From Cytobacillus kochii (lineage in GTDB: Bacteria; Bacillota; Bacilli; Bacillales; Cytobacillaceae), in NCBI RefSeq assembly GCF_020171845.1, contig NZ_JAIVAM010000003.1, positions 1 through 64,000 of the forward strand: 64,000 nt of DNA, read 5' to 3'. The notes beneath the pieces are model-generated. The model saw nothing but the letters and a program-made list of their open reading frames with translations. It ran no database searches and was not told where the DNA came from. The translations under genes and the position numbers were made by a program. Within the stretch, counting starts at the first letter, position 1. Each line of letters opens with the position of its first letter. Shown here one piece after another: positions 4,508 through 12,812 of this stretch.

Positions 4508-4652
4508 GTGCCTATTTTCCTATATTCTAGTAAAAATTTTATTAATCATCCGATATTATTATAGTAGACTAATAGTTTTATATAGTCTTATAACTCGTTT
4601 GTGGGTGTAAAGACCTATATGCGAGTAAAAAATAATAAGGAGTTATAGGAAA

Positions 4653-4994
4653 ATGAAAAAAGCAACGATTCATGTGAATGAAGCAAGTAAAATAGTAAAT
4701 ATGTCTGTAGCAGGGCAGATGACGATGGAGGATGCAAAGCTTTTTGTTGAGGAATATGTGGCAAAAATCGGTCCGATCAATGGACCGGATTATGACCTTT
4801 TTGTTGATTGTACGGAAATGAAGCTTTTATCTCAAGAGCTGTCTGATAATTTGACAGAAGTGATGAAAATGTACAAAGAGACAGGCTTCAAGAAAGTCAT
4901 CTATACGATTAAGGAAAATGTAGTCCTCAAAATGCAATTGGCAAGAGTGGCGAGAAACGCGGGTCTTTTACAAGCAAGTGTTGAAGAGGCTTAA
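4653..4994 (+). CDS. SpoIIAA/STAS-like small protein
   Basis: A 113-residue soluble protein. Its pattern, a beta strand (IVNMSVAGQMTMEDAKLF), a long helix, then FVDCTEM and GFKKVIYTI, resembles SpoIIAA-like STAS domains, which act in protein-protein signalling. I cannot point to a conserved phosphorylatable Ser in the usual place, so an anti-sigma-antagonist role is not supported. An AAGGAG site precedes the ATG. A long hairpin separates it from the KAS III-like gene, 84 bases downstream on the same strand; the two probably share a transcript. Function unknown. Confidence 0.65.
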   Translation: MKKATIHVNEASKIVNMSVAGQMTMEDAKLFVEEYVAKIGPINGPDYDLFVDCTEMKLLSQELSDNLTEVMKMYKETGFKKVIYTIKENVVLKMQLARVARNAGLLQASVEEA

Positions 4995-5041
4995 ATAAGT
5001 ATGAAGAGCTATTCTATTTGGGTAGCTCTTCATACTTATTT
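4993..5041. repeat. 19-bp perfect inverted repeat between two genes
   Basis: Arms 4993-5011 (AAATAAGTATGAAGAGCTA) and 5023-5041 are perfectly complementary around an 11-base loop. The left arm begins inside the stop codon of the STAS-like gene. There is no clean T tract, so it may act as a weak terminator, an attenuator or an mRNA-stabilising hairpin that sets the ratio of the two proteins. Confidence 0.8.
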
Positions 5042-5078
5042 ATATGGAAAAGAAATCATATCAAGAGGAGAATCGAAA

Positions 5079-6062
5079 GTGACAGAACAGAATATTAAAA
5101 TGCGTGCAATAGCTATCTATCATCCGGAGAATGTTGTGACAAATGATTTTTATATTGAACATTTTAAGAAACAAGGGAGGGATATTACCCATTTCCTTGA
5201 AATCATGGGAAGAAAAGAGCGATACATCATTGATAACAGTAAGGAGAATAGCTTATCAATGGGAATAGAAGCAGCGAAAAAGGTATTAACTAAGGCTGAA
5301 ATGGCTGGAGGGGATATAGATCTAATCGTCTTTTCCACACAGGTACCTGAAAGGACGTTTCCAAGTCATGCGATGTATGTACATGAGGCCATTGGTGCCA
5401 AGAATCATACAATGATATATGATAGTAATGCAAATTGCGCAGGTATGACTTTAACAGTGGAAAATGTGTCACGTTACATGATGGCCAATCCACGTGTGCA
5501 GAAAGCATTGGTGATTGGATCGGATGCGAATAGCCTCATTTCTCACCCTCAGCAAGAGATAACCTTTGCCAACTTTGCTGATGGAGCAGCAGCTCTTATT
5601 TTAGAAAAAACAACAGAAGAAACAGGTTTTATTGATGCCATATTCGAAGTGGATTCTGCGAATAAAGATAATATTGTCTATCCGCAGGCAGGTTTTTCTC
5701 AAACGAGAGGACAAGCAGAAAATATTGTATTCCTACCTTTTGATGGAGCAATGGCCATTCCAGTAGCTTGTGATATGATCGAAGAATTGCTTGAAAGAAA
5801 TAACCTAACAATAGGAGATGTAGATGCTTACTGTTTCTCTCAATTTGCTTTATCAAACATTAAGAAAATACAATCACATTTTGAAATCAACCAGGAGAAG
5901 ATTATCTACATAGGTGATAAGTATGGGTATACCACTACAAGTAGTCCTTTTATTTGTTTATATGAAGGTATTGAAACAGGAAGAATTAAAAGAGGCGATA
6001 CGGTGTTATTTTGGACTATTGGTGCGGGGCATGAGATGGTTGCCATGTTGTTTAAGTATTAA
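5079..6062 (+). CDS. 3-oxoacyl-ACP synthase III (FabH)-like protein with altered triad
   Basis: A thiolase-fold protein of 327 residues from the GTG at 5079, which has AAGAGGAG upstream; an ATG at 5001 lies inside the preceding hairpin and has no ribosome site. The N-terminal half keeps the nucleophile Cys120 in NANCAGM. In E. coli FabH the partners are His244 (PHQAN) and Asn274 (GNTSAAS). Here the matching segments read FSQFALSNI (about 253-261) and GYTTTSS (283-289), so His is Ser and Asn is Tyr. The protein could still accept an acyl group on Cys but should be poor at decarboxylative condensation. An acyltransferase or non-decarboxylating role is possible. It is not a housekeeping FabH. 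Confidence 0.75.
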   Translation: MTEQNIKMRAIAIYHPENVVTNDFYIEHFKKQGRDITHFLEIMGRKERYIIDNSKENSLSMGIEAAKKVLTKAEMAGGDIDLIVFSTQVPERTFPSHAMYVHEAIGAKNHTMIYDSNANCAGMTLTVENVSRYMMANPRVQKALVIGSDANSLISHPQQEITFANFADGAAALILEKTTEETGFIDAIFEVDSANKDNIVYPQAGFSQTRGQAENIVFLPFDGAMAIPVACDMIEELLERNNLTIGDVDAYCFSQFALSNIKKIQSHFEINQEKIIYIGDKYGYTTTSSPFICLYEGIETGRIKRGDTVLFWTIGAGHEMVAMLFKY

Positions 6063-6210: not shown

Positions 6211-6357
6211 TTATATAATAAATGATCTATTCTCTTTTAATTTTCTCAAATGAGCAGCGTGTTTTCTGAAATACATTTCCTGATTTAGTAATCCAAAAAA
6301 GTTCTCCATAGGTGAATTGTCTAAGCAGTTTCCTTTTCGGGAAATACTCCGGAACTC
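6211..6357 (-). pseudogene. remnant of an IS3-family transposase (OrfB C-terminus)
   Basis: On the minus strand, about 48 codons ending in TAA at 6211-6213 encode ISRKGNCLDNSPMENFF followed by a typical C-terminal tail. The SRKGNC-DN-ME-FF pattern is the hallmark around the last catalytic Glu of DDE transposases of the IS3/IS150 group. No start, no upstream catalytic Asp residues, no orfA and no terminal inverted repeats are visible. This is therefore a decayed fragment. The reading frame upstream of 6357 is not convincing. Confidence 0.75.
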
Positions 6358-10839: not shown

Positions 10840-10955
10840 CCCATACCATTTAAGAGACGATTAATTATGTCTGTTTTATACATCTGGATTTAGTACATAT
10901 TCTATCTAAAATGTGGGTGATAAACAAACCACTTTTGAATATAGGTGATATAACT

Positions 10956-12812
10956 ATGGATAAGGAAAAAGAAGTAAAAGCGTTACTAGAAATAAAAAGT
11001 AAAATATTAGACCTTATATATAAAGGAAACACTTCTAAGAATCAATTTGATGATTTTGTTAAAGAAGTTGCTACTAGTTTAGGATGTATAGCAGCAGGAT
11101 TTTATTTCGTAAATGAGTGGAGAAAGGCATATGTCATTGAAGGGGAATACCATGCTGAGTTATTGTCTTTACCTGCTATTATTCCTATAGATGAGGTTTA
11201 TCGTGAAAATCATCCTTTGTATGTTAATAAAAAACAGGGAGCTTATTCGAGTAAAGATGGACGCTTACTCATCTTCTTCCTTCAGCGGTTAGATGGCTTA
11301 CCAGAGTATTTGGTTTTGCTAAGGGAGGATCAACAATTTATGTTGAGCCAACCATTTATGAATGAGCTTACAGATGTCTTGAGTTCCTATATGTTATTGA
11401 AAGGTAAAATAAATGAGCTTTACGATGAAAAACTGCATTACACGGAATTGTTCGCATTTGTCGAACGTTTTAGTTTCCATAGAATATTAAAATTGGACGT
11501 ATTATTAAGTGAAATGTTAAAAATTCTGGATAGGCTCTATCCTTCATTTCAATATTATTTATTGTTGACACATGATTATGAAGAAATCAATCAATTACCA
11601 GTGAGGGATCTAGATTATCAGGAGGAAAACAGTCTCGCACTTGAAGCGTATGTATCAGGGGAAGTGACAATAGAACAAACATCAACCGACATTGTTCTAT
11701 ATGCTCCTTTTTTAGGAAGCCAGGGGGTATATGGTGTTCTCCAAGTGATTACTAAAGGGATATATGCCATTCCTAAAGCAGATCAAAAGTATTTTGGTTT
11801 AATTGCGAAAATGACAGGAGCAATTATTGAAAATATTCAATTACATCAACAATCACAACAATTAATTGGTGATTTGCAATTTATAAACGAAACATCACAG
11901 CAATTAAATGCTGATCTGCGTTTTACAGAGACGATTCATTTTATGACAGAACAAATAAAGAAATCATTTCACGCAGAAGAAGTGGGTTTTTTCTTGTCTC
12001 AAGATGGTGAAAAATGGACTCCATTAAGTGGTAGCACCAGTTTCTTCTTTGCAAAAAAATCGAAAGCCTTTGTAACATATGTGCAAAAACTGATGTTAGA
12101 GAAGAAAGATGCCCTCTTTATTGGCGATTTAACGATTCCCCATATGAAAGCTAGTTACCGTTCTCTTATGGCCGTACCTATGGGAAACTTAGGGGATATG
12201 TGGGGGTTTGTCGTGATTTTGCACCCTATGCCTTATTACTTTCCGTTTGATTCATTTAAATTACTCCAAGCATTAATTCATCATACAACGCTTGCATTTA
12301 AGAATTCGTTATTAAGAGAGGAATTAGAAAAGTTAGTCGTAACCGATCACTTAACGCAACTTTTTTCACGAAGTTATTTGGATAATCAAGTGGAACAATC
12401 ACTAAAAAGTGATGAAAAAGGTGTTTTAATATTAATCGATATTGATGATTTTAAAATGATTAATGATGAATATGGTCATCAAGTCGGTGACGATATCCTT
12501 ATTCAAGTGGCAGATATCATCATTCATCATATTAGAGTGGGTGATGTGGGCGCAAGATGGGGAGGAGAGGAACTGGCGATTTATCTTCCAAATGTAGATG
12601 CGAAGATCGGTGTTTCAATCGCTAGAAGATTAAAGGAAAAAGTGAGTCGATTAACGAGTCCAAATGTGAGTATTTCATGTGGTGTTTCACATTGGAAAGC
12701 TAATGAAGATGAGAGCTATGCAACCTTATTTCACCGTGCTGATGTAGCATTATATGAAGCGAAAAATGCAGGGAAAAATAAAGTTGTTTTTTTAGAAAAA
12801 GATAGAGACTAA
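10956..12812 (+). CDS. ytrP: GAF-GGDEF diguanylate cyclase (YtrP/DgcW-like)
   Basis: A 618-residue protein from the ATG at 10956, which has AGGTG eight bases upstream; an in-frame ATG at 10911 lacks a site. The N-terminal 450 residues look like GAF-type sensory modules without membrane segments. A C-terminal GGDEF domain begins at VVTDHLTQLFSRSYLD and carries the active-site motif GGEEL at 536-540, with DIDDFKMINDEYGHQVGD and ADVALYEAKNAGKN, so it should make cyclic di-GMP from two GTP. No RxxD inhibitory site lies immediately before GGEEL. Position next to rpsD and msrC matches B. subtilis ytrP. Its signal is unknown. Confidence 0.85.
   Translation: MDKEKEVKALLEIKSKILDLIYKGNTSKNQFDDFVKEVATSLGCIAAGFYFVNEWRKAYVIEGEYHAELLSLPAIIPIDEVYRENHPLYVNKKQGAYSSKDGRLLIFFLQRLDGLPEYLVLLREDQQFMLSQPFMNELTDVLSSYMLLKGKINELYDEKLHYTELFAFVERFSFHRILKLDVLLSEMLKILDRLYPSFQYYLLLTHDYEEINQLPVRDLDYQEENSLALEAYVSGEVTIEQTSTDIVLYAPFLGSQGVYGVLQVITKGIYAIPKADQKYFGLIAKMTGAIIENIQLHQQSQQLIGDLQFINETSQQLNADLRFTETIHFMTEQIKKSFHAEEVGFFLSQDGEKWTPLSGSTSFFFAKKSKAFVTYVQKLMLEKKDALFIGDLTIPHMKASYRSLMAVPMGNLGDMWGFVVILHPMPYYFPFDSFKLLQALIHHTTLAFKNSLLREELEKLVVTDHLTQLFSRSYLDNQVEQSLKSDEKGVLILIDIDDFKMINDEYGHQVGDDILIQVADIIIHHIRVGDVGARWGGEELAIYLPNVDAKIGVSIARRLKEKVSRLTSPNVSISCGVSHWKANEDESYATLFHRADVALYEAKNAGKNKVVFLEKDRD

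Follow-up and report, generated by a model that had tools for sequence, protein, structure and literature searches.

The KAS III-fold protein of 327 residues encoded at positions 5079 to 6062 on the forward strand of the window (i.e. the whole stretch of 64,000 nucleotides that was analysed) belongs to a conserved subfamily in which the nucleophilic cysteine, Cys120, is kept, while the catalytic His and Asn of FabH are replaced by Ser and Tyr. Going by these active-site features, it is predicted not to be a FabH-type condensing enzyme. Its gene follows that of a STAS-like protein of 113 residues (4653 to 4994, forward strand), and the two genes may work together as a signalling module within the motility programme, in which Cys120 would be loaded and the chemoreceptors would be fed, a reading that is tentatively given a probability of about 0.4.

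Active site of the KAS III-like protein

The frame starts with GTG, preceded by an AGGAG-like ribosome site; a longer version beginning with an ATG at 5001 is unlikely, that start falling inside a 23-bp hairpin (see below). The AlphaFold model of the product (pLDDT 89, pTM 0.90) has the KAS III (thiolase) fold, with Z scores of 41.4 to 4ryb and 41.1 to 6x7r, and both PF08541 and PF08545 are found above cut-off in Pfam; the best NCBIfam matches are to FabH models and lie below cut-off (162.3 versus 249 and 157 versus 292.1 bits). Database records name the genes of the family 3-oxoacyl-ACP synthase or ketoacyl-ACP synthase III, a label that is very probably wrong as to activity.

On alignment with E. 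coli FabH, C112, H244 and N274 correspond to Cys120 (codon 5436 to 5438), Ser254 (5838 to 5840) and Tyr284 (5928 to 5930, all on the forward strand), which bears out, with residues and coordinates correct, the proposal of the initial annotation that Cys120 is intact while His has given way to Ser254 and Asn to Tyr284. The substitutions fall at the same Cys, His and Asn places on alignment with solved FabHs, and also with the two other KAS III proteins encoded in the same genome (L002/L214 and L003/L207), both of which have kept His and Asn. The family alignment comprises 100 rows representing 90 distinct proteins, as ten genomes entered by two routes, and leaves out a truncated gene (L023) and the ordinary FabHs L002 and L003. 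Cys120 and Tyr284 are present in 90 of 90 distinct rows, counts that are biased upward for 80 of the 100 rows since these were found through patterns favouring the Cys or GYTG stretches; position 254, which none of the patterns covered, is Ser in 89 and Thr in one of the 90 distinct rows. In the 19 rows deriving from a whole-protein search (A1), C120, S254 and Y284 are likewise invariant. Gln255 and Thr285 are each found in all 90 distinct rows, as is Asn117, at position -3 with respect to Cys120, where E. coli FabH has A109, and the active-site pattern of the family, N-x-x-C ... [S/T]Q ... [G/A]YT, is fixed in the 90 distinct sequences. His15 and His102 are each conserved in 96 of the 100 aligned rows.

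The changes extend to presumed CoA and ACP contacts. None of the Cys-Ser-Tyr or Cys-Thr-Tyr rows compared has Trp32 or Arg151 of FabH, which are taken here to be the contacts of the CoA adenine, or Arg249, presumably contacting ACP, while most FabH rows keep them; the column of Trp32 shifts with gaps between alignments, and Trp is absent from residues 33-41 in all 100 rows. With these three residues lost and Asn117 fixed, neither the condensing step nor CoA/ACP binding of the FabH type is to be assumed. Thus, the fold (Z about 41), the nucleophilic Cys, the Gln that follows the His position and the GxT motif are shared with FabH, whereas His244, Asn274, Trp32, Arg151 and Arg249 are all replaced, a STAS partner gene is present and, among the best 80 of 266 loci, no conserved fatty-acid gene adjoins. 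The replacement of His244 and Asn274 also supports the view of the initial annotation that this is no ordinary FabH.

An incomplete triad on a KAS III fold has a precedent in PqsBC, whose entry 6et3 is matched by the model with a Z of 37.9: in PMC4807248, PqsC is described as lacking the Asn, and acylation of its Cys as working without the His. Unlike the protein of the window, PqsC retains His269, and its partner PqsB has another KAS III fold rather than a STAS fold.

The family and its STAS-like partner

Relatives are found at E 1e-40 or better in 21 of the 193 genomes of the host's bacterial family, and at 1e-50 in 14 of 398 genomes of the phylum, seven of the latter making up a second group. 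A scan of named genomes returned 266 relatives, and the best 80 of these, which were examined, come from many genera of the Bacillales (Bacillus-like, Lysinibacillus-like, Paenibacillus, Saccharibacillus, Sporolactobacillus and others) and include one Clostridium, as judged by record titles. Values of dN/dS of 0.03-0.16 in 11 close pairs, with dS > 1 in two, indicate that the KAS III-like gene is under purifying selection. In a tree of 47 KAS III rows, from which L111, L212, L222, L228 and L229 were dropped as fragments or duplicates, all Cys-Ser-Tyr proteins lie on one side of a branch having a support of 100/100 and a length of 1.43 changes per column; the same tree, which is unrooted, sets these proteins together with a clostridial Cys-Thr-Tyr group against the other rows with a support of 97/92. 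The residues conserved in 90 distinct rows and the 100/100 branch mark this as a genuine, conserved subfamily.

The model of the STAS-like partner (pLDDT 88.5) has a STAS fold, with a Z of 10.0 to 2q3l over 106 residues and a best Foldseek E of 1.4e-3, and its nearest folds are DUF3478, SiaC and RsbS (Z 9-10), the SiaC entry 7e6g bearing a title that speaks of a diguanylate cyclase activator. The Pfam STAS model is matched below cut-off (13.1 versus 22.6 bits), and a search of the PDB with a profile of the STAS-like proteins gave nothing better than E 0.29. Unlike SiaC, DUF3478 and RsbS, to which its identity is 9-20% in structural alignments, the partner appears to lack an invariant Ser in the phospho-loop typical of such proteins, and it is with a KAS III protein that it is genetically paired. 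No Ser or Thr is invariant at the positions counted between 58 and 65, the SpoIIAA loop having been matched by sequence pattern only, and position 62 is acidic in 76 of 88 distinct rows.

The partnership itself, also put forward in the initial annotation, has been upheld by surveys of adjacency. Among the best 80 of 266 relatives, a STAS-like gene lies at most 0.5 kb from the KAS gene in all 80 loci, being upstream on the same strand with a gap of at most 476 nt in 79, and downstream on the opposite strand in one. In the family search, 1.5-kb flanks contain it in 18 of 21 loci (16 upstream and 2 downstream, the window's own included), the STAS-less ones being L019, L020 and the truncated L023; in the phylum search it is present at six of eight Cys-Ser-Tyr loci besides the window's own, L111 and L119 being without. 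A group II intron match lies upstream for L020; the one at L132 9228-9464 (minus strand), upstream of the STAS-less KAS gene of G164, may have broken up the pair. The 18 best STAS matches (at least 134 bits) among the 193 family genomes are those beside a KAS gene; at 1e-6, STAS relatives occur at 65 places in 47 of the 193 genomes, so that STAS relatives without a KAS gene exist. No third gene family is constant beside the pair among the best 80 of 266 loci, which led to rejection of a fatty-acid or polyketide cluster: the next-commonest neighbour, in 26 loci, overlaps the KAS gene on the opposite strand and seems to be a shadow frame, and the one after that is found in 10 loci.

The gap between the two genes of the window contains a perfect 23-bp hairpin (4992 to 5042, forward strand; fold of -32.2 kcal/mol, z about -8.6 versus mononucleotide shuffles), with no T-run after it. 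A sizeable share of the relatives also have structure in this gap, the median z being -1.9 in the 60 of the best 80 of 266 loci in which it is 45-260 nt long. On the other side of the pair, a short piece at 6225-6345 (minus strand) resembles, by eye, the C terminus of an IS3-type transposase (KGNCLDNSPMENFFG...).

The KAS gene is also present in six plasmid records, STAS adjoining it in four of the five fetched. These include large Paenibacillus and Brevibacillus plasmids (L193, L194 and L196), in two of which (L193 and L196) genes for nicotinate phosphoribosyltransferase and ribose-phosphate pyrophosphokinase lie beside the KAS gene in what looks like a phage-like setting. A close STAS-KAS pair (60% identity) is found on a 140-kb IMG/VR contig (L197). 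A phage-borne origin was rejected: the nine phage records that match, at 24-27% identity, are unannotated and look like ordinary FabH. An anti-phage system was rejected as well, neither the KAS III-like nor the STAS-like protein being matched in PADLOC at E 0.01. Among the literature search results listed, titles and the openings of abstracts showed neither a KAS III-STAS pair nor such a gene in a motility or c-di-GMP setting.

Promoter motifs, riboswitches and chemoreceptor genes

A predicted sigma-D-type promoter motif, TAAA-N15-CCGATAT, at 4531 to 4556 on the forward strand ends 96 nt before the start codon of the STAS-like gene and is an exact match to TAAA-N14-16-CCGATA, which is taken here as the sigma-D consensus. 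Among the best 80 of 266 loci, from which L025 was dropped for these counts as having too little upstream DNA, the motif occurs within 300 nt upstream of STAS in 16 of 79 as compared with none of 750 other genes (p 1e-17, the loci being related and not independent), the reversed motif serving as control being found in 1/79 and 1/750, respectively. Counted more loosely, over 400 nt, the motif is present in 21 of 79 loci (window included) versus 19 of 4218 control segments. The carriers include species of Neobacillus, Metabacillus, Salinibacillus, Gracilibacillus, Oceanobacillus, Saccharibacillus and Paenibacillus. The flagellin gene of the window's own genome (L178) is preceded by a similar motif, which is the sole exact CCGATA among nine flagellin loci, four of the others having a TCGATA form and four no match to the pattern. 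Within the window's genome the motif is not enriched overall (19 occurrences versus 22 for the backwards control, and 9 versus 9 for a stricter form), and the exact motif precedes none of its eight chemoreceptor genes. Nor does sigD separate carriers of the KAS III-like gene from non-carriers (20 of 21 versus 149 of 172).

A second type of control signal is the c-di-GMP-I riboswitch. In Rfam, RF01051 scores above its cut-off of 35 at 16 places in the 19 sources checked. Upstream of STAS it reaches 74.6-82.3 bits in seven of ten sources, these seven having been flagged beforehand by a pattern. A covariance model built from the seven and run on 91 sources gave 16 clear matches (E 1.5e-13 or better), of which seven match by construction and the other nine are confirmed by RF01051 (64.6-80.8 bits). 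The riboswitch lies directly upstream of the pair in 12 of the 91 sources (L042, L043, L046, L050, L055, L057, L073, L082, L133, L134, L136 and L137), before a longer operon ending in the pair in two (L102 and L130) and elsewhere in L038 and L132; in L046, L050 and L057 a sigma-D-type motif is followed by the riboswitch. A terminator-like hairpin comes after the aptamer in both loci checked. The window itself contains no match to the c-di-GMP-I riboswitch. About 5 kb from the pair, a GAF-GGDEF protein, likely a diguanylate cyclase, is encoded at 10911-12812; its closeness is probably due to chance.

Chemoreceptor (MCP) genes adjoin some of the pairs, in the order STAS-KAS-MCP in L136 and L137 and KAS-MCP in L127. 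As immediate neighbours they account for 5 of 158 positions in the best 80 of 266 loci versus 6 of 596 elsewhere (p 0.06), so that MCP adjacency in these loci, taken alone, is weak. Of 47 places listed for STAS paralogues without a KAS gene, 25 were fetched, and 14 of these show the order STAS, a protein of about 240 residues, MCP (L253, L255-L260, L262, L263 and L268-L272, all in the window's bacterial family); these loci are mostly orthologues of two genera, and L257 has a further small frame in between. The middle protein is highly conserved, and the Pfam GNAT cut-off is reached in one of seven members, the other six having no Pfam match at E 0.01.

Possible role of the pair

The pair would seem, from its sequence context, to belong to the motility/c-di-GMP world, the sigma-D-type motifs, the riboswitches and the MCP neighbours being what is new here. 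Since the Cys is kept, STAS is co-inherited and signals that control swimming are found in many relatives, the pair may link metabolism to movement. Most likely, only the first half of the KAS III chemistry, i.e. loading of Cys120, would have been kept and the module would serve motility, either by feeding the acyl state into chemotaxis or by carrying out an acyl transfer needed for a product linked to motility. In the proposed mechanism the KAS III-fold protein would no longer condense; its invariant Cys120 would be charged with an acyl group (or some other electrophilic metabolite) by a donor whose binding differs from that in FabH; the STAS partner would relay to the chemoreceptor machinery either the state of the protein, loaded or not, or the acyl group that has been transferred; and movement would thereby follow the metabolic state. 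The acylation of the Cys, the contact between the STAS-like and KAS III-like proteins, the output to the chemoreceptors and the phenotype are all presumptive. In a version regarded as rather unlikely, the KAS III fold would be a covalent reporter of the acyl state, its acyl-enzyme owing its stability to the loss of His and Asn, and STAS would relay this state to the chemoreceptors under the control of sigma-D and c-di-GMP. Against a motility module speak the weak MCP adjacency, the lack of a riboswitch in the window, the lack of genome-wide enrichment of the motif and the absence of a sigD signal, as well as the operons with thiamine diphosphate (ThDP) enzyme and CMD-like genes described next and the STAS-less L019, L020, L111 and L119.

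These operons lend themselves to a biosynthetic interpretation, possible though doubtful, in which the KAS III-like protein would acylate a small molecule, STAS being a structural or carrier-like helper, to yield a signal or surfactant for motility. A ThDP enzyme gene and a CMD-like gene precede the pair in five loci, which points to biosynthesis: in L102 and L130 the order is riboswitch - ThDP enzyme - CMD-like - STAS - KAS, and in L100, L103 and L104 it is the same with no riboswitch match (L100, L102, L103 and L104 are Paenibacillus; Pfam was run on L130, L102 and L100). The related CerJ and ChlB3 are described in PMC9573744 as acyltransferases with a KAS III fold and a catalytic His. Neither is among the 50 fold-search matches listed, which is not evidence of absence. 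Their triad is Cys-His-Asp by description, whereas the window's protein has no His at either the His or the Asn position of FabH, and this dependence on a His, along with the loss of the CoA/ACP contacts corresponding to Trp32, Arg151 and Arg249, would argue against a simple FabH-like acyl-CoA/ACP transferase. Furthermore, no biosynthetic neighbour is conserved in the best 80 of 266 loci.

The neighbouring clostridial group (L112-L118) also fits biosynthetic acyl transfer. Its proteins resemble those of the window's family in that the Cys and the Asn at -3 are present and the catalytic His and Asn are replaced, here by Thr and Tyr. They differ from them in context, as the seven genomes contain no STAS relative and the operons also encode a CoA-transferase and a further KAS III. 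In six of the seven loci, fetched wide, this second KAS III has a Cys-His-His triad, the gene identities resting on Pfam runs on L121 and L126; the L121 operon also contains an alpha/beta hydrolase and a branched-chain-type transporter. The operons of L121-L126 appear to represent an uncharacterised acyl pathway in their own right.

It is improbable that the protein is a pseudoenzyme acting by binding alone, with the KAS III fold sensing a hydrophobic metabolite and Cys120 being a ligand or structural residue: this would account for His and Asn having been lost together with the CoA/ACP residues, but the invariance of Cys120 and of the newly fixed Asn117 suggests chemistry. Equally hard to favour is protein acylation by the pair, the substrate being a chemoreceptor or some other motility protein and STAS picking the target. 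The STAS paralogues that share operons with a chemoreceptor and the protein of about 240 residues would fit such a role, given the one GNAT match, but this match is confined to a single member of seven, and the best hit of a PDB profile search with that protein has an E of 0.33. Finally, a decaying or redundant copy of FabH, conceivable in a genome with two other His- and Asn-containing KAS III proteins, was rejected as next to impossible in the light of the depth of the family, the fixation of new residues, the dN/dS values indicative of purifying selection and the conserved STAS partner gene.

The subfamily also offers a naturally occurring KAS III fold whose His and Asn have given way to other, fixed residues. 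Should the module, as in the motility reading preferred here, pass a metabolic or acyl state on to motility, it would constitute a new chemotaxis input across many Bacillales, and this idea of a metabolic input to motility is made directly testable by the data on promoters and riboswitches.
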